Shown: positions 1,503 through 40,494 of the stretch, one piece after another
How positions within the stretch are numbered: position 1 is the first letter of the stretch
Layout of the letters: the number at the start of each line of letters is the position of its first letter
Source of the DNA: a virus
IMG/VR virus record: IMGVR_UViG_3300011116_000295
Location: 1-40,494 of that record
Strand: one strand, 5' to 3'
DNA length: 40,494 bases
Program-made: the position numbers and the translations under genes
Notes under the pieces: generated by a model
What the model was told of the DNA's origin: nothing
The model's input: the letters and a program-made list of their open reading frames with translations, nothing else
Databases searched by the model: none

Positions 1503-1615
1503 TGTCAATAGAAGCAGAACGCAGAGCCGACCAAGACCGCAACATCCGATTAGGGTGGGTTACTTTTCTATTTCTTTGCGTTGTGATTATGATAATGAAT
1601 ATGTCGGGGTGCTAA
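1502..1615 (+). CDS. 37-residue single-span membrane protein coupled to the lysis enzyme
   Basis: ATG at 1502 overlaps the stop of the DUF5675 gene, so translation is probably coupled. The protein has a charged N-terminus (MSIEAERRADQDRNIRLG), one membrane segment (WVTFLFLCVVIMIMNM) and ends Ser-Gly-Cys. The copy at 39469-39582 is nearly identical (IMIMNM becomes IIIMNL), although the upstream enzyme is unrelated. Together with mostly synonymous differences, this argues for a real gene. It could be a minimal holin or pinholin-like lysis accessory, which is inference. Its stop codon overlaps the first half of an attC-like site. Confidence 0.7.
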   Translation: MSIEAERRADQDRNIRLGWVTFLFLCVVIMIMNMSGC

Positions 1616-1667
1616 CAAAGCCTTTGCAAAATAAGGGGAACTTACTTCGCAAAGCCGACTGTTAGGT
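1610..1667 (+). repeat. attC-like site A
   Basis: Imperfect palindrome from TGCTAAC (1610-1616) to GTTAGGT (1661-1667), the latter a perfect GTTRRRY. The terminal TAACA pairs, an asymmetric AAGCC/GTCGGC region follows, and then a TTTGC-containing stem closes on a variable centre (AAGGGGAACTT). The arms are shared with the sites at 39577 and 40360 while the centres or ends differ. Arm mismatches are A-C on the plus strand and T-G on the minus strand, which favours folding of the bottom strand, as in integron attC sites. Confidence 0.65.
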
Positions 1668-1699
1668 GCAATATTTTTTAATTTTTTTGCCCACGCACT

Positions 1700-1721
1700 C
1701 GGTTTTTTCAAAACCGTTTTG
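1700..1721 (-). terminator. Hairpin after the methyltransferase gene
   Basis: CGGTTTT (1700-1706) and AAAACCG (1710-1716) form a perfect 7-bp stem with a three-base loop. On the minus strand it follows the methyltransferase stop directly and leads into an A/T-rich tail. It may terminate either strand, since T-rich tracts occur on both sides. Confidence 0.4.
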
Positions 1722-1722
1722 G

Positions 1723-2484
1723 TTAGAATAGTGTTTTATTCAATCTTTTGTTAGTTAATTCAATTGCCTTTGGGTTCAAATCACATCCAATAAATTTTCT
1801 ATTTAATTCTTTACACATTACCGCAGTAACTCCACTACCCATATAAAAATCAGCGACAACATCATTTTCATTACTACTTGCTTTTATAATCACTTCAAGT
1901 ATTTCCTTCGGCTTTTGTGTTAAATAATCAACCCATTCATCATTCTGCTTTGTATAATTCCCCTTCTTAACGGCATTTATAAACCATAAGTTTTCTCGCT
2001 GTTTGCCGTTTATATTTATTGTAATTCCTGCGTTTGCATATCCTTTTATTCTTCGATATGTATCTGGGTGGTGTGGTATCATTACCTTATCCAAATTTAA
2101 AGTATAGTTTTCCGTTTTGGTATAAATAATTATTTCATCTACAACGGTTTTAAATTTAGTTTTATGTTTTCCACCTGCATCGTATTTCCAATAAACAGTC
2201 TGTAAATATCTATCATACCCAAAAATATCATCCATAATTATTCTTAACCAATGTGATATTCTATAATCCATTTGTAAATAGATACTTCCAGTTTTCTTTA
2301 GAAGTCTGTGCATCTCTTTTATTCTTGGTATATAATGGGTTTCAATTTCACTCCGTATCGGTTTTAAATCTTGGTAGTCTGCAAACTTTCTACCAGTACC
2401 ATATAAAATGTCGCAATAAATCAAATCAATACTTTCGTTTTGAAGTTCCTGCATAAATTCTAAATTATCTCTACATACAATCAT
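1723..2484 (-). CDS. DNA N6-adenine or N4-cytosine methyltransferase (orphan, cassette cargo)
   Basis: 253 residues. Motif IV appears near the N-terminus as DILYGTG (residues 25-31), a DPPY-type loop in which Pro-Pro is replaced by Ile-Leu. Motif I appears near the C-terminus as ADFYMGSG (211-218), then FIGCDLNPKAIE. The IV-before-I order matches beta-class amino-methyltransferases (N6_N4_Mtase family). No restriction endonuclease is nearby, so the likely role is modifying phage DNA against host restriction (inference). The gene fills an attC-bounded cassette and is absent from the right allele. The DILY variant leaves target base and activity uncertain. Confidence 0.88.
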   Translation of the reverse strand: MIVCRDNLEFMQELQNESIDLIYCDILYGTGRKFADYQDLKPIRSEIETHYIPRIKEMHRLLKKTGSIYLQMDYRISHWLRIIMDDIFGYDRYLQTVYWKYDAGGKHKTKFKTVVDEIIIYTKTENYTLNLDKVMIPHHPDTYRRIKGYANAGITININGKQRENLWFINAVKKGNYTKQNDEWVDYLTQKPKEILEVIIKASSNENDVVADFYMGSGVTAVMCKELNRKFIGCDLNPKAIELTNKRLNKTLF

Positions 2485-2520
2485 AAAAAATCCCCCCTAA
2501 AAAAATTAAAAAATACAGAC

Positions 2521-2650
2521 ACCTAACACGTGCTATAAGCAATGCAGGGTTACTGCGTTCTTTAATGTTTGTACTATTTATTAACTTTATCATAATTTGA
2601 TAGTTTTGTGGTTTCTAATCCTGCACTGCTCATAGCACCATTTGTTAGCC
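2521..2650 (+). repeat. attC-like site B
   Basis: Starts ACCTAAC (2521-2527, perfect RYYYAAC) and ends GTTAGCC (2644-2650). The arms GTGCTATAAGCAATGCAGG and CCTGCACTGCTCATAGCAC pair almost throughout. Two of the differences are A-C on the plus strand but T-G on the minus strand. About 65 AT-rich bases form the variable centre. The last bases run into the stop codon of the spanin-like gene. Confidence 0.65.
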
Positions 2651-3060
2651 TACTTTACAAGGTAAAGCACCATACACGCAGCAGCAATCCCTGACACCGT
2701 CCAAAGTAACCCTTCCTTTAATCTGTTTTGCCTAATCTTTTTCTTTAGCTGCTTTTCAGCGGCTAACTTTTCAGCTTCGCAGGATTGAGTTAAAACTTTC
2801 GATATTTCTAAGTCATTGGCTAAAACTTTATTAATAGCCTCTAATTGCACGTTTGCGCTATTACAGGCATCAAAACCAACAGAAAGGGTATCATAAGCCT
2901 CACGACACATATCGCGGTCTATAAACGCACTAATTACAATATCTAACTCCTTTTCAGAAAGACACGTTAAAGTGTCCCCGTTATTTATTAAGGTAGTTTG
3001 CGAGTACGTTCTGCTTACCAGACAAAGGCAAAGCCAAAGCACTATCTTTAATTTGCACAT
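2650..3060 (-). CDS. Spanin-like protein with N-terminal signal sequence and C-terminal membrane segment
   Basis: 136 residues. An N-terminal hydrophobic segment (KIVLWLCLCLVS) ending in TYSQ looks like a signal peptide. It is followed by a long helical, probably coiled-coil region and a basic KKKIRQNRLKEG stretch, then a C-terminal span (LLWTVSGIAAACMVLYLVK). The C-terminal 30 residues are almost identical in the right-allele homologue (39634-40029), while the N-terminal half differs. Its start lies inside the preceding gene in another frame, an arrangement typical of Rz/Rz1 spanin pairs. Spanning topology and lysis function are inferred from position and architecture. Confidence 0.6.
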   Translation of the reverse strand: MCKLKIVLWLCLCLVSRTYSQTTLINNGDTLTCLSEKELDIVISAFIDRDMCREAYDTLSVGFDACNSANVQLEAINKVLANDLEISKVLTQSCEAEKLAAEKQLKKKIRQNRLKEGLLWTVSGIAAACMVLYLVK

Positions 3061-3310
3061 ATTTAATTTTGATTTTGATTATTTCTTTCGGTTTACTTTC
3101 TGCAATTTCTTTGAAGCGTTGGTAGCTCGCTGTTATATCAATCAGCATTAAGCTATCCTGCTCAATTTTATTTAACAGATATTCGCGCTCAGTGTTGGGT
3201 GGTGCTATGCTTACAGGGTTGCAGTTAATAACTTTTACTACTAATCCGATAATAACAATCATCAGGACTGCAAAGATAATAATTAGGTAGTTTTTTTTGA
3301 TAAATTTCAT
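2981..3310 (-). CDS. Spanin-like protein with N-terminal membrane anchor
   Basis: 109 residues. A single N-terminal span (YLIIIFAVLMIVIIGLVVKV) is followed by a periplasmic-type region: PPNTEREYLLNKIEQDSLML, then a helical segment rich in Lys and Glu. This is the layout of an inner-membrane spanin (Rz-like). The last 80 bases overlap the following gene in a different frame. The right allele has a homologue (39935-40279) with the NTEREYLL region conserved and a divergent C-terminus. The sequence TAACTTTAC sits directly before the ATG, a weak -7-like element. Family membership is not certain. Confidence 0.6.
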   Translation of the reverse strand: MKFIKKNYLIIIFAVLMIVIIGLVVKVINCNPVSIAPPNTEREYLLNKIEQDSLMLIDITASYQRFKEIAESKPKEIIKIKIKYVQIKDSALALPLSGKQNVLANYLNK

Positions 3311-3371
3311 TTTGTAAAGTTAGTTAATTTTTCTGCCACCGCACCCAAAATTCAGCGAAAGGCTGAACTTC

Positions 3372-3435
3372 GGATAACGGTCAATTTACTCAATTCTTCT
3401 GCTTCGCAAGAACAGCGTAAATTTTTGCGTTATAT
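3372..3435 (+). repeat. attC-like site C
   Basis: Palindrome from GGATAAC (3372-3378) to GTTATAT (3429-3435). Paired blocks, outside to inside, are ATAACG/CGTTAT, AATTTAC/GTAAATT and TTCTT/AAGAA, separated by unequal unpaired stretches (GTC opposite four bases on the other arm). This block-and-spacer plan matches R and L boxes of attC sites. Cleavage at G3429|T3430 would start cassette 2. Confidence 0.55.
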
Positions 3436-3509
3436 GCCATTGCCGTGCTTCGTAGCAAGCATTATCGGAACTTCTCTTTTTTTGTTTTAAATAATTTTTG
3501 CCCACGCTC

Positions 3510-4442
3510 TTAAAAAAATAAAGACGGTTGTTGTTTAATCAAATCGGTTCTGTCATTCGCCATTTTCGTATAGCGTTCTTCAATTTCAAATCCAATAAAG
3601 TTTCTGTTTTCTTTCACACACATTGCACACTCTGTTCCACTTCCTGCAAATGGTATCAGCACTAAATCCTTTTCTCTGCTGCAAGTTAATATTAACGCTC
3701 TGGTCAATGTTTCGGGCTTGCAGGTATCGTGGTCGTAATTGCCTGTAATGTGTGCCTCTTGGTCAAACTTCATCACATCATACAGTTTCATAAAGTTGTT
3801 GAATGGTCGTCTCAATGTTTCGTATTCTGTCCTCAGTGTTTCGTATTCTTTTTTATCTGGGTTCGGTATTAAATTGTATTGGTATTCAGTAATCATTTGC
3901 GGTTTGTGGCTTCTTTGGCTCAAAATATTATTTGCGTTTTGTTTTGCACTTTCAGAATTTCGGCAGTTGCCTGTTTGCAATAATATTTCTGCAAGTTCAT
4001 TTCGTGTTGTAATGGTTGCCAAATAATCCTGAATGTATTTAATTGATAACCGAACATTATCGTGGTAATCATCGCCAACGCTATACATCAGCAGTCGTTC
4101 ACTCACGGGAGCAAAGCATCTAAATTCTTCAACACCTTTTTTGGTTTGGCGGTTAAATTCAATAGTGATATTGTTTTCTAAATTCAAAAGTTTGTCAAAA
4201 ATTATTTGCGTATATGCTATTTTCTTTGCGTGTCCATACCAAAATAATGTTCCATTATCAGCAAGCACCCGCTTACATTCCTTTGCCCACAGTTCCACCT
4301 GTTGCAAGTATTCATCAAAGGTTTTCCAAATGAAATCAAACTCTCCCTTCACTTCAAAGTAAGGTGGGTCAGCAATTATCAACTGCACCGATTTATCAGG
4401 CAATGTATTATTCATCCAGTCGGTATTAAATACTGTATTCAC
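3510..4442 (-). CDS. DNA methyltransferase with DPPY motif (orphan, cassette cargo)
   Basis: 310 residues. Motif IV is ADPPYF (residues 24-29), and motif I is FAGSGT (265-270) followed by FIGFEIEERY, the order seen in beta-class N6-adenine/N4-cytosine methyltransferases. The middle (about 110-235) is a large target-recognition-like insert containing a duplicated YETLR heptad (KEYETLRTEYETLRRPF). No cognate nuclease is seen. The gene overlaps the upstream 78-residue gene by 17 bases, so both are probably cotranscribed. It probably protects phage DNA against restriction (inference). It is not related closely to the other cassette enzyme and is missing from the right allele. Confidence 0.9.
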   Translation of the reverse strand: MNTVFNTDWMNNTLPDKSVQLIIADPPYFEVKGEFDFIWKTFDEYLQQVELWAKECKRVLADNGTLFWYGHAKKIAYTQIIFDKLLNLENNITIEFNRQTKKGVEEFRCFAPVSERLLMYSVGDDYHDNVRLSIKYIQDYLATITTRNELAEILLQTGNCRNSESAKQNANNILSQRSHKPQMITEYQYNLIPNPDKKEYETLRTEYETLRRPFNNFMKLYDVMKFDQEAHITGNYDHDTCKPETLTRALILTCSREKDLVLIPFAGSGTECAMCVKENRNFIGFEIEERYTKMANDRTDLIKQQPSLFF

Positions 4443-4662
4443 TTATCAATTCGTTTTTTATGTTTCCATTGCTTGCTTGTTCTATTGTCATTCCACATAC
4501 TTTGCAAAATCCATCTTTATCAAAATCGTGAGTTCCTTTTTCAAGTCCTCCTTCCCAATCAGGATATAAGCAGTCAGATAATTTGCCTGTCCATTGTGGC
4601 TCTTGTCCTCTTTCAAGCATCAGTTTGTAAAGTTGTTGTTGTGTCATAATATTTTTTTTCAA
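4426..4662 (-). CDS. Small zinc-finger-like protein preceding the methyltransferase
   Basis: 78 residues. I recognise no named family. It contains HDFDKDGFCKVCGMTIEQA, where His plus CxxC could bind zinc, and a WTGKLSDCLYPDWEGG segment. Its end overlaps the methyltransferase start by 17 bases, suggesting translational coupling and a joint role as cassette cargo. Met6 (MTQQQLYK) is an equally plausible start. No function is assigned. Confidence 0.55.
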   Translation of the reverse strand: MKKNIMTQQQLYKLMLERGQEPQWTGKLSDCLYPDWEGGLEKGTHDFDKDGFCKVCGMTIEQASNGNIKNELISEYSI

Positions 4663-4752
4663 AAAATTAAAAGATTAAAACCCCTCCCTAAAAAATTATT
4701 TAAAACAAAAAAGGGTTCATCGCTTCGTAGGAACGACAGTGGGAGCAACGGC

Positions 4753-4845
4753 ATATAACAACGGATTAAATGAAATTTAAAAAAATCTTTTCTCATTTTT
4801 TATTTTGGTATTTTTTTAAACTTCATTAATCCGCAACCGTTATAC
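4753..4845 (+). repeat. attC-like site D
   Basis: Runs from ATATAAC (4753-4759) to GTTATAC (4839-4845). The arms CGGATTAAATGAA and TTCATTAATCCG pair with one extra A in the 5' arm, an extrahelical base as in attC L boxes. They continue through TTTAAAAAAAT/ATTTTTTTAAA into a variable centre. The one substitution inside the arms is A-C on the plus strand and T-G on the minus strand. The 3' half overlaps the stop codon of the downstream 54-residue gene. Confidence 0.6.
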
Positions 4846-5004
4846 TCTAAACCCGTCCGCCTCACCCTGCCATTTTACTTTTAGTTCTGGCTTGCGACTT
4901 TTCGGCACTCTAATAGTCAAATTATCGGACGGCTCACCGAACTTCAACTTAGCACCTGCGCCCGGACGTTTACCGCCACTTCCTTTTTTTCTTGCTTTTT
5001 TCAT
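4840..5004 (-). CDS. 54-residue basic protein, possible DNA-binding regulator
   Basis: ATG at 5004-5002, stop TAA at 4842-4840. The basic N-terminus KKARKKGSGGKRPGAGAKLK contains an AT-hook-like GGKRPGAGAK stretch. FGEPSDNLTIRVPKSRKPEL follows, a pattern seen in small phage proteins where the LTIRVP strand may begin a ribbon-helix-helix fold. The 3' part is repeated at the window end (40437-40494) with mostly silent changes, showing selection on the protein. It is the last gene of the early operon, just outside the cassette array. The regulatory role is inferred. Confidence 0.6.
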   Translation of the reverse strand: MKKARKKGSGGKRPGAGAKLKFGEPSDNLTIRVPKSRKPELKVKWQGEADGFRV

Positions 5005-5313: not shown

Positions 5314-7206
5314 TTAAAAAGGGTCTTCAGTTATTTGTTTTGGTTCTGCTATTCGTGTTGGTGCTTCGCTTTCAAAATTAACATTAGGCTTTAGTTGCAC
5401 TTCTTTGGGTATTAAATCTGCTTGCACCGGCTGTAAGTATTCTTCAATATAATCTTTGCCACCAAAATAAAACCTACGTTTTGCTCTATTCAATTCAAAA
5501 GTTAAAATGCCTTTTTTACCTACTGTCTTTTGTCTTCTTATTTTCTTTGAATGTAGTTCGCAAATATTACTATCAGGGTTTGTTTGATGGTCTGGTCTGT
5601 GATAAATTAAAATATTATCGGTTTTATTGTTCCACATAGCACCGTCCGCAATCTCATATACATCAGGACAAGGATAATTCTTTTCTCCTAATTCTTTTTT
5701 TAATTTGTGCGGGTGTGCAACTATTGTAAAATAAATATTATTAAGCTGTGCAAAGCGTAGGCAATCAGATAAAAATGTTTCAAGATACTTATCGCTTCTG
5801 CCTCCATAATCGTTACTAAGTTGATTGAACGGATCAATAATGCAACCGTCAATTTTCTCTTTTATTATTAACTCTAAAAACCTTTCCTTTATGTATGCAG
5901 GTGTTGGCGCAATATCTTTAGGATATACATAAAAAATGTGCTTTGAAATATAATCATAAGCCCTTTCGTATTCTGTTTTAGAAACTTTCCTTTCGTTAGG
6001 CTTTAGAAACGGGGTGCAATTACCACCAATGTATGTTTCAACTAAGTCATGATAAAATTCTTCAGCAGGGTTGTCTTCTGGAGAAAAGAATGCAAATTTA
6101 TTTCCGCTCTTTATTACTTTTATTAAAAGCAAATATTTTAGCAGTGTCGATTTACCGTAGTTTCCTATTCCTGACAAAAGCGTTAGTTCACCGCGTTTAA
6201 ATTTAAAGTAAATATCTAACTCAGGAACTCCAGTGCTTTCAACACCCTCATAACCTTTCTCGAAAATAGTTAAAGCCTTATCTTTTACATCTTCGCCATA
6301 AATAACATCTTTAGGTCTTATATCTATGTTGTAAATGTCAGGGTTTATTTCTGATTTTATTTCGCCTCTTGTAATTTTATCTACTAACTTATCCTTTTCA
6401 AATTGAGCAGTACCGTAGTTTGAAGCATTAACCTTATATGCGCTTTTAATTGTTCGGTGGCACTCTGACTGACTAAATGAATTTTCATTACCAACAAAAT
6501 TAAAGTCGCAATAAAAACGGCAACTATCCTCACTCATTCCAAAACGGCAACAAGCACCTGCAAGTTTAAAAATAAATACATTTCGCTCTCCTGTTACAAA
6601 AGCATCACCCCTATTTGATAGCCATTTTAGAATGTTTGAAAATACCTCAGATTTATCTTCAACTCTTTCTTTTATTTCTACCTTTTCAATCTTTAGTGTT
6701 TTGCCATAAGTTGAAGCAATAGGGTTAATGTAAATGTTTTCGTCATAGCTTTCATAACATACACGGCTTACGTTTTTACCGCTAATATCAATCTCCGGAA
6801 GTTCTTTTAGTAACGCTGTGAAATGTTCTAAATGCTTTTCGCCTTTCGCAATTTCAACCAACATTTTTAATCCATTGCCTGACGGGCTAATCCAACACGC
6901 ATAACAATACGGAAGTTTGATTAATTCAGCTTTTTTAGTTTCTAAATTTTCAACATTATCAAAGTCTAAAACAATAAAGCCTGAATGCTCAATTATGCTT
7001 TTATCCGTTCTGTCAGCACCAAATTTCCCAGAAAAGCAAATAGACGGCAGGTTGCATTTTAGTTTATTAGCACGTTCTTTATCCAGCTGTGCGCGAATTT
7101 CTAAAACCTTTTCTTTGCTCTTGCCTGTCTTTATTCTGTCAAGTGCTTTTTCTACTGTTATGTAGTGAGGCTCGCGAGAAAATATATTTATGTATGCTGT
7201 TACCAT
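5314..7206 (-). CDS. Bifunctional primase-helicase (BT4734-like primase domain plus RecA-fold helicase)
   Basis: 630 residues. Residues 1-165 resemble the BT4734-like/VirE N-terminal domain, an archaeo-eukaryotic primase relative: acidic VLDFDN (79-84), SPSGNGLKMLV (108-118) and SRVCYESYD (147-155). Residues about 188-262 look like a primase C-terminal helical domain. A RecA/DnaB-type ATPase follows, with Walker A GIGNYGKST (346-354), Walker B IDGCIIDP (452-459) and a sensor-like IVAHPHK near 495-501. It probably primes and unwinds DNA at the phage fork. It overlaps the DUF6291 gene by 7 bases, consistent with one replication operon. Confidence 0.88.
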   Translation of the reverse strand: MVTAYINIFSREPHYITVEKALDRIKTGKSKEKVLEIRAQLDKERANKLKCNLPSICFSGKFGADRTDKSIIEHSGFIVLDFDNVENLETKKAELIKLPYCYACWISPSGNGLKMLVEIAKGEKHLEHFTALLKELPEIDISGKNVSRVCYESYDENIYINPIASTYGKTLKIEKVEIKERVEDKSEVFSNILKWLSNRGDAFVTGERNVFIFKLAGACCRFGMSEDSCRFYCDFNFVGNENSFSQSECHRTIKSAYKVNASNYGTAQFEKDKLVDKITRGEIKSEINPDIYNIDIRPKDVIYGEDVKDKALTIFEKGYEGVESTGVPELDIYFKFKRGELTLLSGIGNYGKSTLLKYLLLIKVIKSGNKFAFFSPEDNPAEEFYHDLVETYIGGNCTPFLKPNERKVSKTEYERAYDYISKHIFYVYPKDIAPTPAYIKERFLELIIKEKIDGCIIDPFNQLSNDYGGRSDKYLETFLSDCLRFAQLNNIYFTIVAHPHKLKKELGEKNYPCPDVYEIADGAMWNNKTDNILIYHRPDHQTNPDSNICELHSKKIRRQKTVGKKGILTFELNRAKRRFYFGGKDYIEEYLQPVQADLIPKEVQLKPNVNFESEAPTRIAEPKQITEDPF

Positions 7207-8179: not shown

Positions 8180-8746
8180 TTAATTAAAATATCTTAATGA
8201 TGTTTTATTAGTTCGTGTCCCTACTAAGTAATGTATTAAAGTAGATTTTTTTATTCCTAAAATATTACAAGCATCGGTAGCACTTTTGTATATAATATTT
8301 GTATTTATATCAATAACCTGTTTACTATTAATATTTCTTAGTTTTTCTTTATGCCAGTTACTTTGAACCATTTTAGGATAAAGTCCCATAGCCCTTGCAT
8401 GGCGTATGTTTTCTAAAGATGTTACCCACTCTAAATTATTTACGTTGTTATCAGACTTATCACCATTTATATGATTTATCTCGCGCTTGTTATCTAAATT
8501 AACTAAAAACGCTTGCGCTACTATCCTGTGAACCCTACGCATTTCATCTTTACCTTTGTTTTGTAACCTAACACGTTTATACCCCCTTTCAGTTGCAGGT
8601 GCAAGAATTATCTCTTTTGTATAGTAAGTGTAATTCCCGCTTTTATTAAAGCATCTTTTTAGCTTCTTGCAGCTTTTTACTTTTCCTGTGTTACTAACTT
8701 TATAACACCCTTCAAATCCAATAACATCTTTCCAAATTTCTTCCAT
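8180..8746 (-). CDS. NUMOD4/HNH homing endonuclease
   Basis: 188 residues with three recognisable parts. An N-terminal NUMOD4 module (EEIWKDVIGFEGCYKVSNTG, 2-21) comes first. An HNH_3-type core follows (VHRIVAQAFL about 72-81, then INHINGDKSDNNVNNLEWVT). A C-terminal NUMOD1-like helix-turn-helix (IYKSATDACNILGIKKSTLI) ends the protein. These are free-standing homing endonucleases that insert next to phage genes. It has its own pseudoknot leader and promoter, although AP2/HNH copies elsewhere share only the leader and not the protein family. Confidence 0.92.
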   Translation of the reverse strand: MEEIWKDVIGFEGCYKVSNTGKVKSCKKLKRCFNKSGNYTYYTKEIILAPATERGYKRVRLQNKGKDEMRRVHRIVAQAFLVNLDNKREINHINGDKSDNNVNNLEWVTSLENIRHARAMGLYPKMVQSNWHKEKLRNINSKQVIDINTNIIYKSATDACNILGIKKSTLIHYLVGTRTNKTSLRYFN

Positions 8747-8851
8747 TTTAAAATACCTGCCAAACGCAAAGACTTACCCACGCTGTTGCGGATGCAACAA
8801 ATGGCAATGCGAATGACAGGATTTTTTAATATTTTTCATGCGTGAGTAAGT
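8747..8851 (-). ncRNA. Pseudoknotted 5' leader RNA, copy 4 (upstream of NUMOD4/HNH endonuclease)
   Basis: P1 pairs 8851-8840 with 8783-8772 over 12 bp (minus strand ACTTACTCACGC with GCGTGGGTAAGT, one wobble). P2 is CCTGTC with GGCAGG (8820-8815 with 8761-8756), with an inner 4-bp helix (8811-8808 with 8768-8765). The CATTGCC core lies at 8809-8803 and hairpin P3 (GTTGC-ATCC-GCAAC) at 8798-8785. The linker ATGAAAAATATTAAAAAATC is shared with copies 1 and 2. Confidence 0.75.
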
Positions 8852-17442: not shown

Positions 17443-17898
17443 ATGCCAACAGGATTACAGAACGGAAAGTATTACACAGTAGAAGATATTGAAAAGGCAT
17501 GGGAAGGATATAAAACCCATTGCGATAATCAACTTGTTCAAGAAGTAAGCGCAGGTAAGGTTCTATCTGTAAACCGTCCTCGTATTCCTACCGTTGGGGA
17601 GTTCTGCCATAAGTTCCTAAACGTAACAGAACAAACACTTTTGAACTACGAAAAAGCAGAGGGGTACGAAGCCTATTTTGAAACTATAAAGAAGATTAAG
17701 GATGAGGTGGCACAATTTAAAAAGGCTGCACTAATAAACGCACAGGGTTCAACAACGGGTTTAATCTTTGATTTAAAGGTTAATTATGGTTGGGCTGAAA
17801 AGCAAATCATTGAGCAGCACGTAACTTATTCTGCGGACTTTGGAACTGAAATTATACACACCACACCAGAAGCAAGCGGAAATACATCAATCGCTTAA
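17443..17898 (+). CDS. Terminase small subunit
   Basis: 151 residues, immediately upstream of and overlapping the large subunit. The N-terminal region (TVEDIEKAWEGYKTHC, then RIPTVGEFCHKFLNV) looks like a helix-turn-helix DNA-recognition part. The C-terminal ALINAQGSTTGLIFDLKVNY, then GWAEKQIIE, is the conserved end of small terminases of this type. It recognises the packaging site and regulates the large subunit. Confidence 0.85.
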   Translation: MPTGLQNGKYYTVEDIEKAWEGYKTHCDNQLVQEVSAGKVLSVNRPRIPTVGEFCHKFLNVTEQTLLNYEKAEGYEAYFETIKKIKDEVAQFKKAALINAQGSTTGLIFDLKVNYGWAEKQIIEQHVTYSADFGTEIIHTTPEASGNTSIA

Positions 17899-37375: not shown

Positions 37376-38164
37376 ATGGCAAATCCATTTAGAACAATGT
37401 TCTGGGACGTAGAAGTTAGCCCCAACGTATGCACCACTTGGCGGGTCGGTAGTAAGATATTCCTTTCAGCGGAAAACATAATTAAGGAACGTGCAATCAT
37501 TTGTATCTGTTGGAAGTGGGAGGACGAAGAAGAAGTACATCATTTGACATGGGATAAGAACCAATGCGACAAAACCATGCTTCAAAAGTTTGTAAAAGAA
37601 CTAAACAAAGCACATTTAATAATAGGGCAAAATTCAGATAAGTTTGATGAACGTTGGATAAAGACACGTTGCATATTTCACGATATACCAGCACTACCTA
37701 AATACACCTCAATAGACACGTTAAAGATAGCACGTAAGACGTTTAACTTTAACTCTAATAGATTAGACTATATGGGTAAGTTCTTAGGTGTGGGGCAAAA
37801 GATAAAAACAGAGTTTGACTTGTGGAATAAGATTATCTTTAACAAAGATGCAAAGGCAATGAGTTACATGGTAGATTATTGCAAGCAGGACGTTGTGTTA
37901 TTAGAGCAAGTTTATAAGAAGTTACAGAAATATGCAGAACCCAAAATTCACAAGGCTGTTGCTCTGGGTGGTGAAAAGTGGGATTGCCCTCATTGCGCTT
38001 CTGAAAGGACAATGATAAGCACTACTAAATTCAGCAAGGTGGGAACTGTTTGGACGCAAATGAAGTGTAATGCGTGTAAGCGTTTCTTTTCAGTTTCTGA
38101 GGCTGTTCGTAGGGCTTATTTAGAATTTAAACTAAAGCAGGAAAGGAGAAAGCATAACTTATGA
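37376..38164 (+). CDS. RNase H-fold (DnaQ/YprB-like) exonuclease with C-terminal zinc ribbon
   Basis: 262 residues. Exo motifs are Exo I FWDVEVSP (Asp11, Glu13), Exo II IIGQNSDKFDERW (Asn86, Asp91) and Exo III MVDYCKQDVVLLEQVY (Tyr168, Asp172), as in 3'-5' DEDDy exonucleases of the YprB/RNase_H_2 group. A zinc ribbon follows (CPHCAS at 204-209, CNACKRF at 231-237). Unlike the other nucleases it lies on the late strand at the end of the late operon, next to the AP2-like protein. It may trim DNA ends or act on host nucleic acid; the substrate is unknown. Confidence 0.85.
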   Translation: MANPFRTMFWDVEVSPNVCTTWRVGSKIFLSAENIIKERAIICICWKWEDEEEVHHLTWDKNQCDKTMLQKFVKELNKAHLIIGQNSDKFDERWIKTRCIFHDIPALPKYTSIDTLKIARKTFNFNSNRLDYMGKFLGVGQKIKTEFDLWNKIIFNKDAKAMSYMVDYCKQDVVLLEQVYKKLQKYAEPKIHKAVALGGEKWDCPHCASERTMISTTKFSKVGTVWTQMKCNACKRFFSVSEAVRRAYLEFKLKQERRKHNL

Positions 38165-38358
38165 AAAGCAGATACGCCAATGTTTATTGTCCTAATCCAC
38201 GCCATTATCGCAAGAGATTACAATGGAGATACCGAATTAGAATAGATGGAGTTGTTTATGACGGATATGCAAAGACAGAGAAGGAAGCCGCAAAAAACAT
38301 CGACCTTATATTAATTCGGAATGGGAAACATCCAGTTAATGTTCTGAAGTCTAAATAG
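38161..38358 (+). CDS. AP2-like small DNA-binding protein (complete copy)
   Basis: 65 residues, starting in a 4-base overlap with the exonuclease stop. The basic half has PRHYRKRLQWRYRIRIDG, then VVYDGYAKTEKEAAKNIDLI, a strand-strand-helix AP2-like pattern. It is nearly identical to the truncated copy at 1-182 up to residue 52, then diverges. It faces the HNH endonuclease with one intervening base. Possibly the DNA-targeting partner of one of the neighbouring nucleases, which is inference. Confidence 0.65.
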   Translation: MKSRYANVYCPNPRHYRKRLQWRYRIRIDGVVYDGYAKTEKEAAKNIDLILIRNGKHPVNVLKSK

Positions 38359-38359
38359 C

Positions 38360-38884
38360 TTATATAATTACATTTATACAGGCAAAGTCACCGTAATGTT
38401 TTATGGCGGCGGCATTGTATACAAGCGCAGCTTCTTTTTCTGTTTTAAACGAACCAAGCCTTTTTTGCTTCCCATTTACCTGTATAAGTGCGCCCCATTT
38501 TGGTTTATAATAAGACCATTCTCCAGTTGTAATCTTAAAATATTTTTTAGTAAATAAATAAACCCCCTTATAAATTGAAGTCATTGGTTTGTGCTTTTTC
38601 CTATTTTGTGCGTTTTGCGAAACGGTGCAAATTCTAATATTCTCACGTCTATTATCTAATACATTGTGATTTATGTGGTCAACAATTTTCTTATCGCCAA
38701 ACTCACACCCTAAAATAAGCCTGTGCATTTGAATAGCCTTTTGTTTTTTATTTACTGATACCATTCTACTTGCATAAGCCTCAACACCTACTCCGCTTAC
38801 ACCCCATTTCCATTGATTTACCCATTCATAATCAGCATCATCAACTAATGCAATCATTCCATTTGTTAATTTTATTTCTTTCAT
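38360..38884 (-). CDS. HNH homing endonuclease with AP2 domain (right allele)
   Basis: 174 residues. HNH core: MHRLILG, VDHINHNVLDNRRENIRI. AP2 part: IYKGVYLF, then PKWGALIQVNGKQKRLGSFK and TEKEAALVYNAAA. Homologous to 175-903 along its whole length but ending at GDFACINVII, without the 70-residue extension. It has the same leader RNA and promoter layout. The presence of two alleles of a homing endonuclease on the same locus fits its mobility. Confidence 0.9.
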   Translation of the reverse strand: MKEIKLTNGMIALVDDADYEWVNQWKWGVSGVGVEAYASRMVSVNKKQKAIQMHRLILGCEFGDKKIVDHINHNVLDNRRENIRICTVSQNAQNRKKHKPMTSIYKGVYLFTKKYFKITTGEWSYYKPKWGALIQVNGKQKRLGSFKTEKEAALVYNAAAIKHYGDFACINVII

Positions 38885-38992
38885 TTAAAAATACCCACAC
38901 CAATTACAAAGGCTATCCAGTCGGCAACAGTGAGTTGCAAAAGGCAATGTAAGAGGCGAGGGATTTTTTAATATTTTTCATAACTGAATAGC
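38885..38992 (-). ncRNA. Pseudoknotted 5' leader RNA, copy 2 (right allele)
   Basis: P1 pairs 38992-38982 with 38922-38912; P2 pairs 38962-38955 with 38900-38893 with one mismatch and one wobble relative to copy 1. The core CATTGCC lies at 38949-38943 and hairpin P3 (15 bases, five pairs) at 38938-38924. Most of this leader is identical to copy 1, whereas copies 3 and 4 differ in all helices. Confidence 0.75.
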
Positions 38993-38995
38993 GTT

Positions 38996-39004
38996 ACAAA
39001 TATA
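38996..39004 (-). promoter_or_regulatory. -7 promoter element for the right-allele endonuclease
   Basis: The minus strand reads TATATTTGT, three bases before P1a, as in copy 1. Confidence 0.55.
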
Positions 39005-39015
39005 ATAATTATATT

Positions 39016-39024
39016 TAACTTTGC
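39016..39024 (+). promoter_or_regulatory. -7 promoter element for the M15 endolysin
   Basis: TAACTTTGC, conserved with 1035-1043; 19 bases upstream of ATG 39044. The lysis gene in both alleles is thus under the same promoter despite unrelated coding sequences. Confidence 0.5.
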
Positions 39025-39043
39025 ATTATAATAGTATAAAAAA

Positions 39044-39472
39044 ATGATAAAACAATATAAAGCAAGCCACTTTGAGGGTATCTGTAACGTAGATGAAGAC
39101 TTTTTCCCTATGTTAGACCAAATGAACTACATTGCACAAAATCACAATATGATAGTTGTGGTTACATCCTCATTCCGATTAGACACAAATGTAAAAGGCG
39201 CTATCGTACCACCATCAAAGCGTTCTAATCATTTAATCGGGCAAGCTATCGACTGTAATGTTAAAAATAAAAGAACAGGAGAATACTATAATTCCACAAA
39301 GATGGGTGATGGGAAAGGCGAAGATGAATTATTTTTAAAAGACGTTGATGAAAAAACTCCACTACGCTGGGGTGTGGCATTTAATAATCCAGACAGCGTT
39401 CATTTTGATAGCGGGCTGAATTTAAAGAACCCTCAATTATGGCAGGAGAAATATGATAAATATCACAAATGA
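39044..39472 (+). CDS. M15-type peptidoglycan peptidase (endolysin)
   Basis: 142 residues. SNHLIGQAIDCNV (61-73) gives zinc ligands His63 and Asp70. W109 and SVHFDSG (118-124) with His120 give the third ligand and catalytic acid position, as in D-Ala-D-Ala carboxypeptidase/L-Ala-D-Glu endopeptidase-type (Peptidase_M15) endolysins. SSFRLDT (42-48) is the usual arginine-containing substrate loop. No signal peptide, so a holin is needed. It replaces the DUF5675 gene at the same slot with exactly the same length (429 bases) and is coupled by ATGA to the same 37-residue membrane protein. Confidence 0.9.
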   Translation: MIKQYKASHFEGICNVDEDFFPMLDQMNYIAQNHNMIVVVTSSFRLDTNVKGAIVPPSKRSNHLIGQAIDCNVKNKRTGEYYNSTKMGDGKGEDELFLKDVDEKTPLRWGVAFNNPDSVHFDSGLNLKNPQLWQEKYDKYHK

Positions 39473-39582
39473 GTATAGAAGCAGAAAGACGAGCCGACCA
39501 AGACCGCAACATCCGATTAGGCTGGGTTACGTTTCTATTCCTTTGCGTTGTGATTATAATAATGAATTTGTCTGGGTGCTAA
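39469..39582 (+). CDS. 37-residue single-span membrane protein (right allele)
   Basis: Starts within the endolysin stop (ATGA). Same sequence as 1502-1615 except two conservative changes in the membrane segment (FLFLCVVIIIMNL). DNA differences are mostly at third positions, so the protein is under selection. Its stop overlaps the attC-like site that follows. Confidence 0.7.
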   Translation: MSIEAERRADQDRNIRLGWVTFLFLCVVIIIMNLSGC

Positions 39583-39634
39583 CAAAGCCTTTGCAAAATA
39601 AGGGGAACTTACTTCGCAAAGCCAACTGTTAGCC
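39577..39634 (+). repeat. attC-like site A' (right allele)
   Basis: Identical to site A except one base in the 3' arm (GCCAACT versus GCCGACT) and the bases after G|TT: here GTTAGCC followed by the spanin gene, as after site B in the left allele. This is the predicted empty target for cassette 1. Confidence 0.65.
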
Positions 39635-40029
39635 TACTTAACCAAGTAAAGCACAATTAGAGCAGCGGCAACTCCAGACACCGTCCATAGTAACCCTTCC
39701 TTTAATCTGTTTTGCCTAATCTTTTTCTTTAGCTGCTTTTCAACGGCTAACTTTTCTTCCTCAATCCCTTTTGCTACTACTTTTGCGCTTTCTAAATCAT
39801 TTAACAGCGTTTCATTTGCTTTTGATAGATATGCTTCACTTTCTAATAAAGCATCGTAAGACACGCTTAAAGTATCTAATTGAAGTTTACACCCGTCCGC
39901 AAATACTTTAGTCTGATTAGCAACGTTTATTTGCTCAATAGTGAATTGCTGGGCGTGAAGTCCACTCATTGAAATAATTAACAGACTGAATGCTGTCAAA
40001 ATTTGCCACGCTGTCTTGTTTTTGTACAT
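39634..40029 (-). CDS. Spanin-like protein, right allele (signal sequence plus C-terminal span)
   Basis: 131 residues. Signal-type N-terminus (ILTAFSLLIISMSGLHAQQ), coiled-coil middle (LLESEAYLSKANETLLNDLE) and the same basic C-terminus as the left copy (EKQLKKKIRQNRLKEGLLWT) followed by a membrane span. No lipobox cysteine is visible. Its start overlaps the preceding gene in another frame. Function as for the left homologue is inferred. Confidence 0.6.
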   Translation of the reverse strand: MYKNKTAWQILTAFSLLIISMSGLHAQQFTIEQINVANQTKVFADGCKLQLDTLSVSYDALLESEAYLSKANETLLNDLESAKVVAKGIEEEKLAVEKQLKKKIRQNRLKEGLLWTVSGVAAALIVLYLVK

Positions 40030-40279
40030 AGATTGTTTTATATTTAATTACTACTTTTTGTTTACTTTCTGCAATTTCCTTAAACTTAATATAGCTCGCT
40101 GTTATATCAATCAGCATTAAACTATCCTGCTCAATCTTATGCAACAAGTATTCGCGCTCAGTGTTGGGTGGCACTATGCTTACAGGATTATTATTTAAAA
40201 CTTTTACAGTTAGCCCGATTATAAAGCATAACAGTATAAAGCAGATTATTTGTAGGTAGTAGGTTTTTATGAAGTTCAT
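39935..40279 (-). CDS. Spanin-like protein, right allele (N-terminal anchor)
   Basis: 114 residues. N-terminal span (YLQIICFILLCFIIGLTVKV), then VPPNTEREYLLHKIEQDSLM, conserved with 2981-3310, and a divergent C-terminal tail. It overlaps the following gene by 95 bases in a different frame. The box TACCTTTGC on the minus strand, directly upstream of the ATG, is a good -7 element, so this pair may have its own leaderless promoter. Confidence 0.6.
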   Translation of the reverse strand: MNFIKTYYLQIICFILLCFIIGLTVKVLNNNPVSIVPPNTEREYLLHKIEQDSLMLIDITASYIKFKEIAESKQKVVIKYKTIYVQKQDSVANFDSIQSVNYFNEWTSRPAIHY

Positions 40280-40359
40280 TTTGCAAAGGTATTAAATTAA
40301 GTTTAGTTATTTTAAGTTAGGTAGTGCTTTTATTTTTCAGGTTGTGTAGTTATTTTTAG

Positions 40360-40442
40360 CGATAACAAAGCCTTTGCAAAATCGCTCAATGCCTCCATTT
40401 ACAGTTAGTCTATACGCGACTTCGCAAAGCCGACTGTTATAT
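40360..40442 (+). repeat. attC-like site D' (right allele)
   Basis: CGATAAC (40360-40366) to GTTATAT (40436-40442). The arms AACAAAGCCTTTGCAAAAT and ACTTCGCAAAGCCGACTGTTA are identical to those of site A, but the centre is a different, longer sequence of about 36 bases that can itself form a stem (CGC...GCG). Conserved arms with variable terminal structure are characteristic of attC families. Confidence 0.65.
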
Positions 40443-40494
40443 TCTAAACCCGTCCGCCTCACCCTGCCACTTAACTTTTAGTTCTGGCTTCCGA
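40437..40494 (-). CDS. 3' end of 54-residue basic protein, truncated by the window edge
   Basis: The minus strand reads RKPELKVKWQGEADGFRI then stop (40439-40437), matching the C-terminus of the gene at 4840-5004 (final Val replaced by Ile). Only the last 18 codons are inside the window. It shows that sequence beyond the right edge would continue into the early operon. Confidence 0.7.
   Translation of the reverse strand, partial: RKPELKVKWQGEADGFRI

Follow-up and report, generated by a model that had tools for sequence, protein, structure and literature searches.

The question raised by this locus is whether two genes on the minus strand of a phage genome, lying between hairpins that resemble integron attC sites, form a mobile cassette, and what might move it. 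The stretch analysed (the window) is an IMG/VR virus record of 40,494 bases, for which the first-pass annotation had proposed a two-gene attC cassette at 3430-4839. Sites C and D were found to border a methyltransferase gene and a CxxC ORF over this interval. The features are listed below, with scores from a custom attC finder that accepts only sites with paired arms and core boxes of the form YAAC...GTTR; the bar in a core marks the joint.

1610-1667, plus strand: attC A, R' core G(1661)|TTAGGTG, finder score 31 (bottom strand) and 24 (top strand)
1662-2644, minus strand: cassette 1, an N6/N4 methyltransferase gene and attC B, missing from the right allele
1723-2484, minus strand: methyltransferase 1, 253 amino acids, PF01555 (Pfam E 5.5e-44; PHROG 67, E 4.2e-53)
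2521-2650, plus strand: attC B, R' core G(2644)|TTAGCC, finder score 46 (bottom) and 39 (top)
2645-3429, minus strand: two-ORF unit with attC C, overlapping small ORFs at 2650-3060 and 2981-3310
3372-3435, plus strand: attC C, R' core G(3429)|TTATATG, finder score 25.5 (bottom) and 22 (top), the lowest of the six sites
3430-4839, minus strand: cassette 2, methyltransferase 2, the CxxC ORF and attC D, bounded by C and D
3510-4442, minus strand: methyltransferase 2, 310 amino acids, PF01555 with a DPPY motif (Pfam E 5.3e-35)
4426-4647, minus strand: ORF for a CxxC protein of 73 amino acids, overlapping the methyltransferase 2 start by 17 nt
4753-4845, plus strand: attC D, R' core G(4839)|TTATAC, finder score 40 (bottom) and 36 (top)
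39577-39634, plus strand: right-allele attC A', the empty counterpart of the cassette 1 site, core G(39628)|TTAGCC, finder score 32
40360-40442, plus strand: right-allele attC E', core G(40436)|TTATAT, finder score 33

The PF01555 profile match of methyltransferase 2 reached 121.8 bits against a curated cut-off of 26.7, and translational coupling of this gene with the CxxC ORF was inferred; attC D lies on the 5' side of both. No match to the CxxC protein was found in Pfam or PHROG, nor by tblastn in 50,697 phage records. The small ORFs at 2650-3060 and 2981-3310, which are lysis- or spanin-like by layout only, likewise had no Pfam or PHROG match; the pair is also present in contigs L009-L011, and the unit that holds it is not a clean cassette because its two ends match over 4 nt only. 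Perfect A/T-rich inverted pairs of 22 nt (3478-3499 and 4691-4712) and 17 nt (1672-1688 and 2499-2515) were observed to bracket the ORFs of cassettes 2 and 1, respectively, such that the 5' and 3' ends of a transcript would be complementary.

All six sites have R''/R' core boxes (YAAC...GTTR) around a long imperfect hairpin, and in 6/6 the bottom strand exceeded the top strand both by DNA fold energy (-13.2 versus -7.9 kcal/mol for attC A) and by arm score. The four left and two right sites scored 25.5-46, while shuffled copies reached up to 26 and the 33 kb backbone gave one match above 26 (17444-17599, scoring 28.5). Site C alone fails to exceed the shuffle maximum, and its assignment is weak, resting on its position and on the fact that it bounds cassette 2 on the left. 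Pairs of R-box-matched sites were absent from 580 kb of shuffled phage DNA. A covariance model built without the window sites (R1) matched attC A (25 bits, E 0.007) and A' (26.6 bits, E 0.003), gave a weak match to E' (15 bits, E 0.65) and did not recover B, C or D; an Rfam scan of the window gave no match. A search of genome contigs for the exact attC A pattern returned four single matches in unrelated genomes (Treponema, Spirochaetota, Aenigmatarchaeota and Rudanella) with no surrounding array, and these were set aside as chance or uninformative. With four left-allele attCs within 3.3 kb and no PF00589 domain in the window, the criteria for a CALIN are fulfilled, while those for a complete integron (intI and attI beside the array) are not.

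The cassette ends were then compared. The first-pass annotation had described 10-bp matched ends at 3429 and 4750, and this proved exact to the base: GTTATATGCC (3429-3438) and GGCATATAAC (4750-4759) are perfect reverse complements, the first 10 nt from the left-core G being the reverse complement of the 10 nt that end at the AAC of attC D. Its reading of the allele ends, G|TTATAT on the right and G|TTATAC on the left, was borne out by the cores G(40436)|TTATATTCTAAACCC and G(4839)|TTATACTCTAAACCC. The start of a canonical integron cassette is complementary to its own R'' over approximately 7 nt; here the complementarity extends over 10 nt in cassette 2 and 8 nt in cassette 1. When the start of cassette 2 was compared with the sequence before attC D, the 10-nt agreement was followed by one differing position (A/G, position 11), after which agreement resumed, and the cassette ends of related phages likewise showed complementarity to 10, a single break and then further agreement. 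Extended complementarity as such was rejected as a phage-specific feature, as it was also found in bacterial arrays; only the A/G at position 11 differs. In phage cassettes the start carried A and the attC side (as reverse complement) G in 29/38 cases (29 of 32 among the exact-10 matches of a second viral set), compared to 1/33 bacterial cassettes. On the bottom strand this mismatch is a G.T pair.

Evidence for exchange came from the window record itself, in which one locus occurs twice as divergent copies, in the first 4.9 kb and the last 2.3 kb (1-166, 823-1044, 1508-1665, 2643-2772, 3052-3329 and 4836-4897 align to parts of 38183-40494 at 75-94%). Related contigs have this locus once, between an exonuclease-like gene near 38 kb and a gene at approximately 4.85 kb, and the window ends were therefore read as two population alleles; most likely the phage is circularly permuted and its assembly passed through both. 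The independent contig L013 equals the right end of the window at 99.76% up to 39,317. The phage was judged to be a tailed phage of Bacteroidota-infecting type, although its actual host was not identified. An endolysin-type swap was noted adjoining the cassette array, where 1074-1502 encodes a DUF5675 protein on the left and 39044-39472 a Peptidase_M15 protein on the right; at the equivalent position L010 (7202-7666) and L014 (7829-8293) have a lysozyme-like protein, as judged by eye. HNH-type genes at 175-903, 38360-38884 and 8180-8746 resemble free-standing homing endonucleases with a conserved leader, a similar stretch (GGATTTTTTAATATTTTTCAT...) being found upstream of at least two of them, at 980-1009 and 8819-8848.

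Cassette 1 (1662-2644) is cleanly present in one allele and absent from the other, with joints at G|TT. The left allele reads attC A-G|TTAGGTG, methyltransferase gene, attC B-G|TTAGCCTACTT, while the right allele, split exactly at G|TTA, has attC A' joined directly to G|TTAGCCTACTT. At the same joint the sister contig L014 has an attC of the E' type (to which site A of L014 belongs), then G|TTATGCG, a gene that resembles PAPS reductase and matches PHROG 424, a new attC and G|TTAGCCTACTT, and L012 has attC A-G|TTAGCGG with a 68-aa ORF. One joint thus has four fillings (empty in the window right allele, methyltransferase in the left, PAPS-reductase-like in L014 and the 68-aa ORF in L012), which argues for cassette exchange. 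The case is weaker for cassette 2, which does not form a clean present/absent pair because the adjoining attC is C on the left and E' on the right, and these are different attCs.

Relatives of methyltransferase 2 were found within attC arrays at 59% (L005), 54% (L006) and 49% (Lillamyvirus). In 395 Bacteroidota genomes this enzyme had no match at E 1e-60, and so no bacterial donor was found. The proposal that the methyltransferase and the CxxC protein travel together holds for cassette 2 only: other arrays have the methyltransferase beside attCs (L005, L006 and Lillamyvirus), but the CxxC gene is absent from the cassettes of these relatives. Fixed, non-attC flanks in many phages would have refuted the cassette reading; this was not seen in the closer relatives, although two distant ones (L007 and L008, 38-39%) have no attC adjoining the gene. 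Arrays comprised 4-7 sites in the contigs examined first, and as many as 14 attCs in cultured phages (Lillamyvirus), and R' was matched to the next R'' in L005, L006, L011, L012 and Lillamyvirus. L005 and L012 have one methyltransferase cassette in nearly identical form, and L005 also has a small gene in common with L006; a relative of this small gene was also seen with two attC cassettes in L092 (IMGVR_UViG_3300025030_000041, 246115 bases). Four methyltransferase-like ORFs are present in L010/L012 and several methyltransferases in Polaribacter phage P12002L, where attCs on the plus strand and methyltransferase genes on the minus strand agree with inversion. In the P12002L locus (L065), two further attC-like sites with matching R boxes (38032-38093 and 38876-38939) were observed around a methyltransferase of inverted polarity at 38118-38816. 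Phage TJE1 has one clear site adjoining a methyltransferase, with polarity not clear, and no attC site was found in the first 45 kb of H101.

A cassette was found at two positions in cultured sister isolates. Lillamy9-1 (MN812212) and lillamy9-3 (MN812214) are of equal length (38,268 bp), and a 444-bp unit at 5637-6080 in one is 100% identical to 2037-2480 in the other, as are the 3,605 bp between the two positions, giving a displacement of 3.6 kb with G|TT joints. The unit comprises a gene and an attC on its 5' side; the source closes ...TTTAACG|TTATGTAAAAG and the target opens ...TATTGTAG|TTATAAGC. The insertion target in lillamy9-3, located where the array begins, consists of a single R-box rather than a full attC, and the gene beside it is identical in 46 records. 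It is inferred that this R-box is used in the manner of attI; the direction of the move was not determined.

The annotation had also called the genes antisense to the usual cassette orientation, and this was supported because the attC that moves with the gene sits on its 5' side in three cases (window cassette 1, L014 and lillamy9-1/9-3). A typical sense gene has the attC at its 3' end, which is not strictly defining, and this was not fulfilled in the window or its phage relatives. Counting each gene once, the first set of phage cassettes gave 0 sense and 39 antisense genes, compared to 34 sense and 5 antisense in Bacteroidota chromosomal arrays (Fisher P = 8e-17). A second set gave 2 sense and 53 antisense, from the 24 of 87 further viral loci (those retrieved with two cassette proteins) that hold R-box-matched cassettes; shuffled DNA gave 0. 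The second set includes a few contigs already counted (L005, L006 and L012) and the loci are not all independent by descent, and the Fisher P therefore overstates the evidence. The antisense direction was nonetheless uniform across unrelated arrays. The only second-set locus with sense cassettes was L174 (2 sense, 2 antisense).

Chromosomal polarity was anchored by arrays adjoining intI, in genomes assigned to Bacteroidota by T9SS domains. A covariance model of 36 phage attCs, the conserved pairing of which gave a covariation of 0.387 versus 0.166 when shuffled, identified attC arrays in 13/395 Bacteroidota genomes and matched the chromosomal attCs on the gene-sense strand, independently of one-base orientation marks. 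Orientation from wobble pairs alone was abandoned as ambiguous for the Lillamyvirus attC type, for which it was taken from unit movement, the AACA...CGTTA marks and the strand of model R1 matches. The inversion relative to bacterial cassettes makes the phage cassettes resemble a separate pool maintained among phages, the probable reason being that only inverted genes point along phage transcription. A Bacteroidota integron integrase with all neighbouring genes pointing towards it and attC-like sites reversed was noted at L061 (G006:C1:1200500-1220400), and is possibly a reversed integron.

The attC architecture, matched ends, antisense gene, alleles split at G|TT and a cassette at two positions in sister isolates are all direct observations, and on this basis we consider it highly probable that cassette 2 is a mobile cassette in a CALIN of a Bacteroidota tailed phage, with movement by a host integrase and exchange of anti-restriction genes as inferences. 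No tyrosine recombinase (PF00589) was found in the 13 phage records tested, so the recombinase must be either host-supplied or of a type not recognised; with IntI above the cut-off in 105/395 Bacteroidota genomes, an integrase provided in trans by the host is plausible. Such an integrase is the likely engine, inferred in the absence of host intI data and without direct observation of recombination. It would recognise the hairpin of the attC bottom strand as phage DNA infects the cell or replicates, excise phage cassettes as circles and allow these to be reinserted at another attC or at the lone R-box at the array start. Methyltransferase 2, if active as inferred, may methylate the phage DNA and so block host restriction enzymes, and by cassette exchange a phage could change its set of methyltransferases.

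The same absence of a recombinase, together with the intergenic position of the sites and the ability of attC-like hairpins to act as terminators, would also suit an array of terminators between phage accessory genes, made mosaic by homologous or illegitimate recombination at short repeats without any integron integrase. We regard this as improbable, as a terminator has no need for joints at G|TT or for a unit end that matches, over 10 nt, the distal side of the unit's hairpin, and the displaced lillamy unit is found 3.6 kb away, where only GTTAT-type sequence is in common. Phages without an integrase, sharing an attC family with Bacteroidota chromosomes, could alternatively carry relics, acquired from bacterial integrons on one occasion and since then fixed and immobile. 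This is less probable still: bacterial cassettes of the same attC family carry oppositely oriented genes, several alternative fillings occur at one site, and the relocation between lillamy9-1 and lillamy9-3 contradicts relics for Lillamyvirus. Least credible is a mobile element of the transposon or homing type whose termini would be 10-bp inverted repeats. The perfect inverted ends and the internal 22-bp pair could be cited for it; cassette 2 contains no transposase or homing endonuclease, the ends vary from cassette to cassette, and a folded site of 58-140 bp is attached at one end.

N6/N4 methyltransferases are a prominent cargo in phage arrays, and swapping them to evade restriction is the likely function, with enzyme activity inferred. 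In Nilsson 2020 (PMC7077304), LMO9 phages that plated 3-4 logs lower on LMO6 were reported to lack a specific methyltransferase, and one LMO6 passage restored plating, as restriction predicts; the phages regrown on LMO6 were lillamy9-1 and morran9-1. An 843-bp methyltransferase missing from the lillamy (including lillamy9-1) and morran (including morran9-1) phages was found to be carried by sniff9-2 as an attC cassette, which together with an adjoining cassette is inserted precisely at AA|C (equivalent to G|TT). Its identification as the gene of PMC7077304 is ours and not that paper's. The snusmum6 phages, isolated on LMO6, also lack the gene, which therefore cannot be the sole plating determinant, and the link to plating, resting on an incomplete source, is partial.

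According to Qi et al. 2023 (PMC9892861), CALINs with methyltransferase cargo occur in virulent phages, including P12002L, and in E. coli IntI1 recombined phage attCs with attI1. Those arrays, like that of the window phage, have attCs without an integrase and N6/N4 methyltransferase cargo, and the finding of cassette 2 is therefore of a known kind; unlike the present case, the main text describes no alternative alleles, isolate-to-isolate relocation or systematic inversion, and does not mention Flavobacterium phages. The sedentary chromosomal integrons of Bacteroidota share with the phages the attC family (model R1), G|TT ends and extended end complementarity, but their cassettes are sense to attC, often adjoin intI and lack the position-11 A/G signature. 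Phage orphan methyltransferases are similarly PF01555 enzymes able to mask phage DNA from restriction, whereas in the window and its relatives each phage has several of them, placed in attC cassettes that can be interchanged. Uniform inversion, the position-11 signature and a cassette at two positions in near-identical cultured phages appear to go beyond prior work, in that none was found in the literature searched, nor was any paper on antisense cassettes (preprints and most subscription journals lay outside the search).

A wider proposal, to which we give an even chance, is that Bacteroidota phages have their own distinct pool of cassettes (with an inverted gene, ends of approximately 15 bp and a fixed G.T pair at position 11 of the bottom strand), exchanged among unrelated phages, possibly formed by a route other than that of bacterial cassettes, and with prominent methyltransferases that would quickly reset host range. 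As cultured Flavobacterium phages and hosts exist (Lillamyvirus, LMO6/LMO9), movement, the need for an integrase and the effect on host range are directly testable. The opposite gene polarity implies that phage and bacterial cassettes form largely separate pools and, if the interpretation is true, lytic phages would use integron machinery, known mainly for the spread of resistance genes in bacteria, to shuffle anti-restriction genes.
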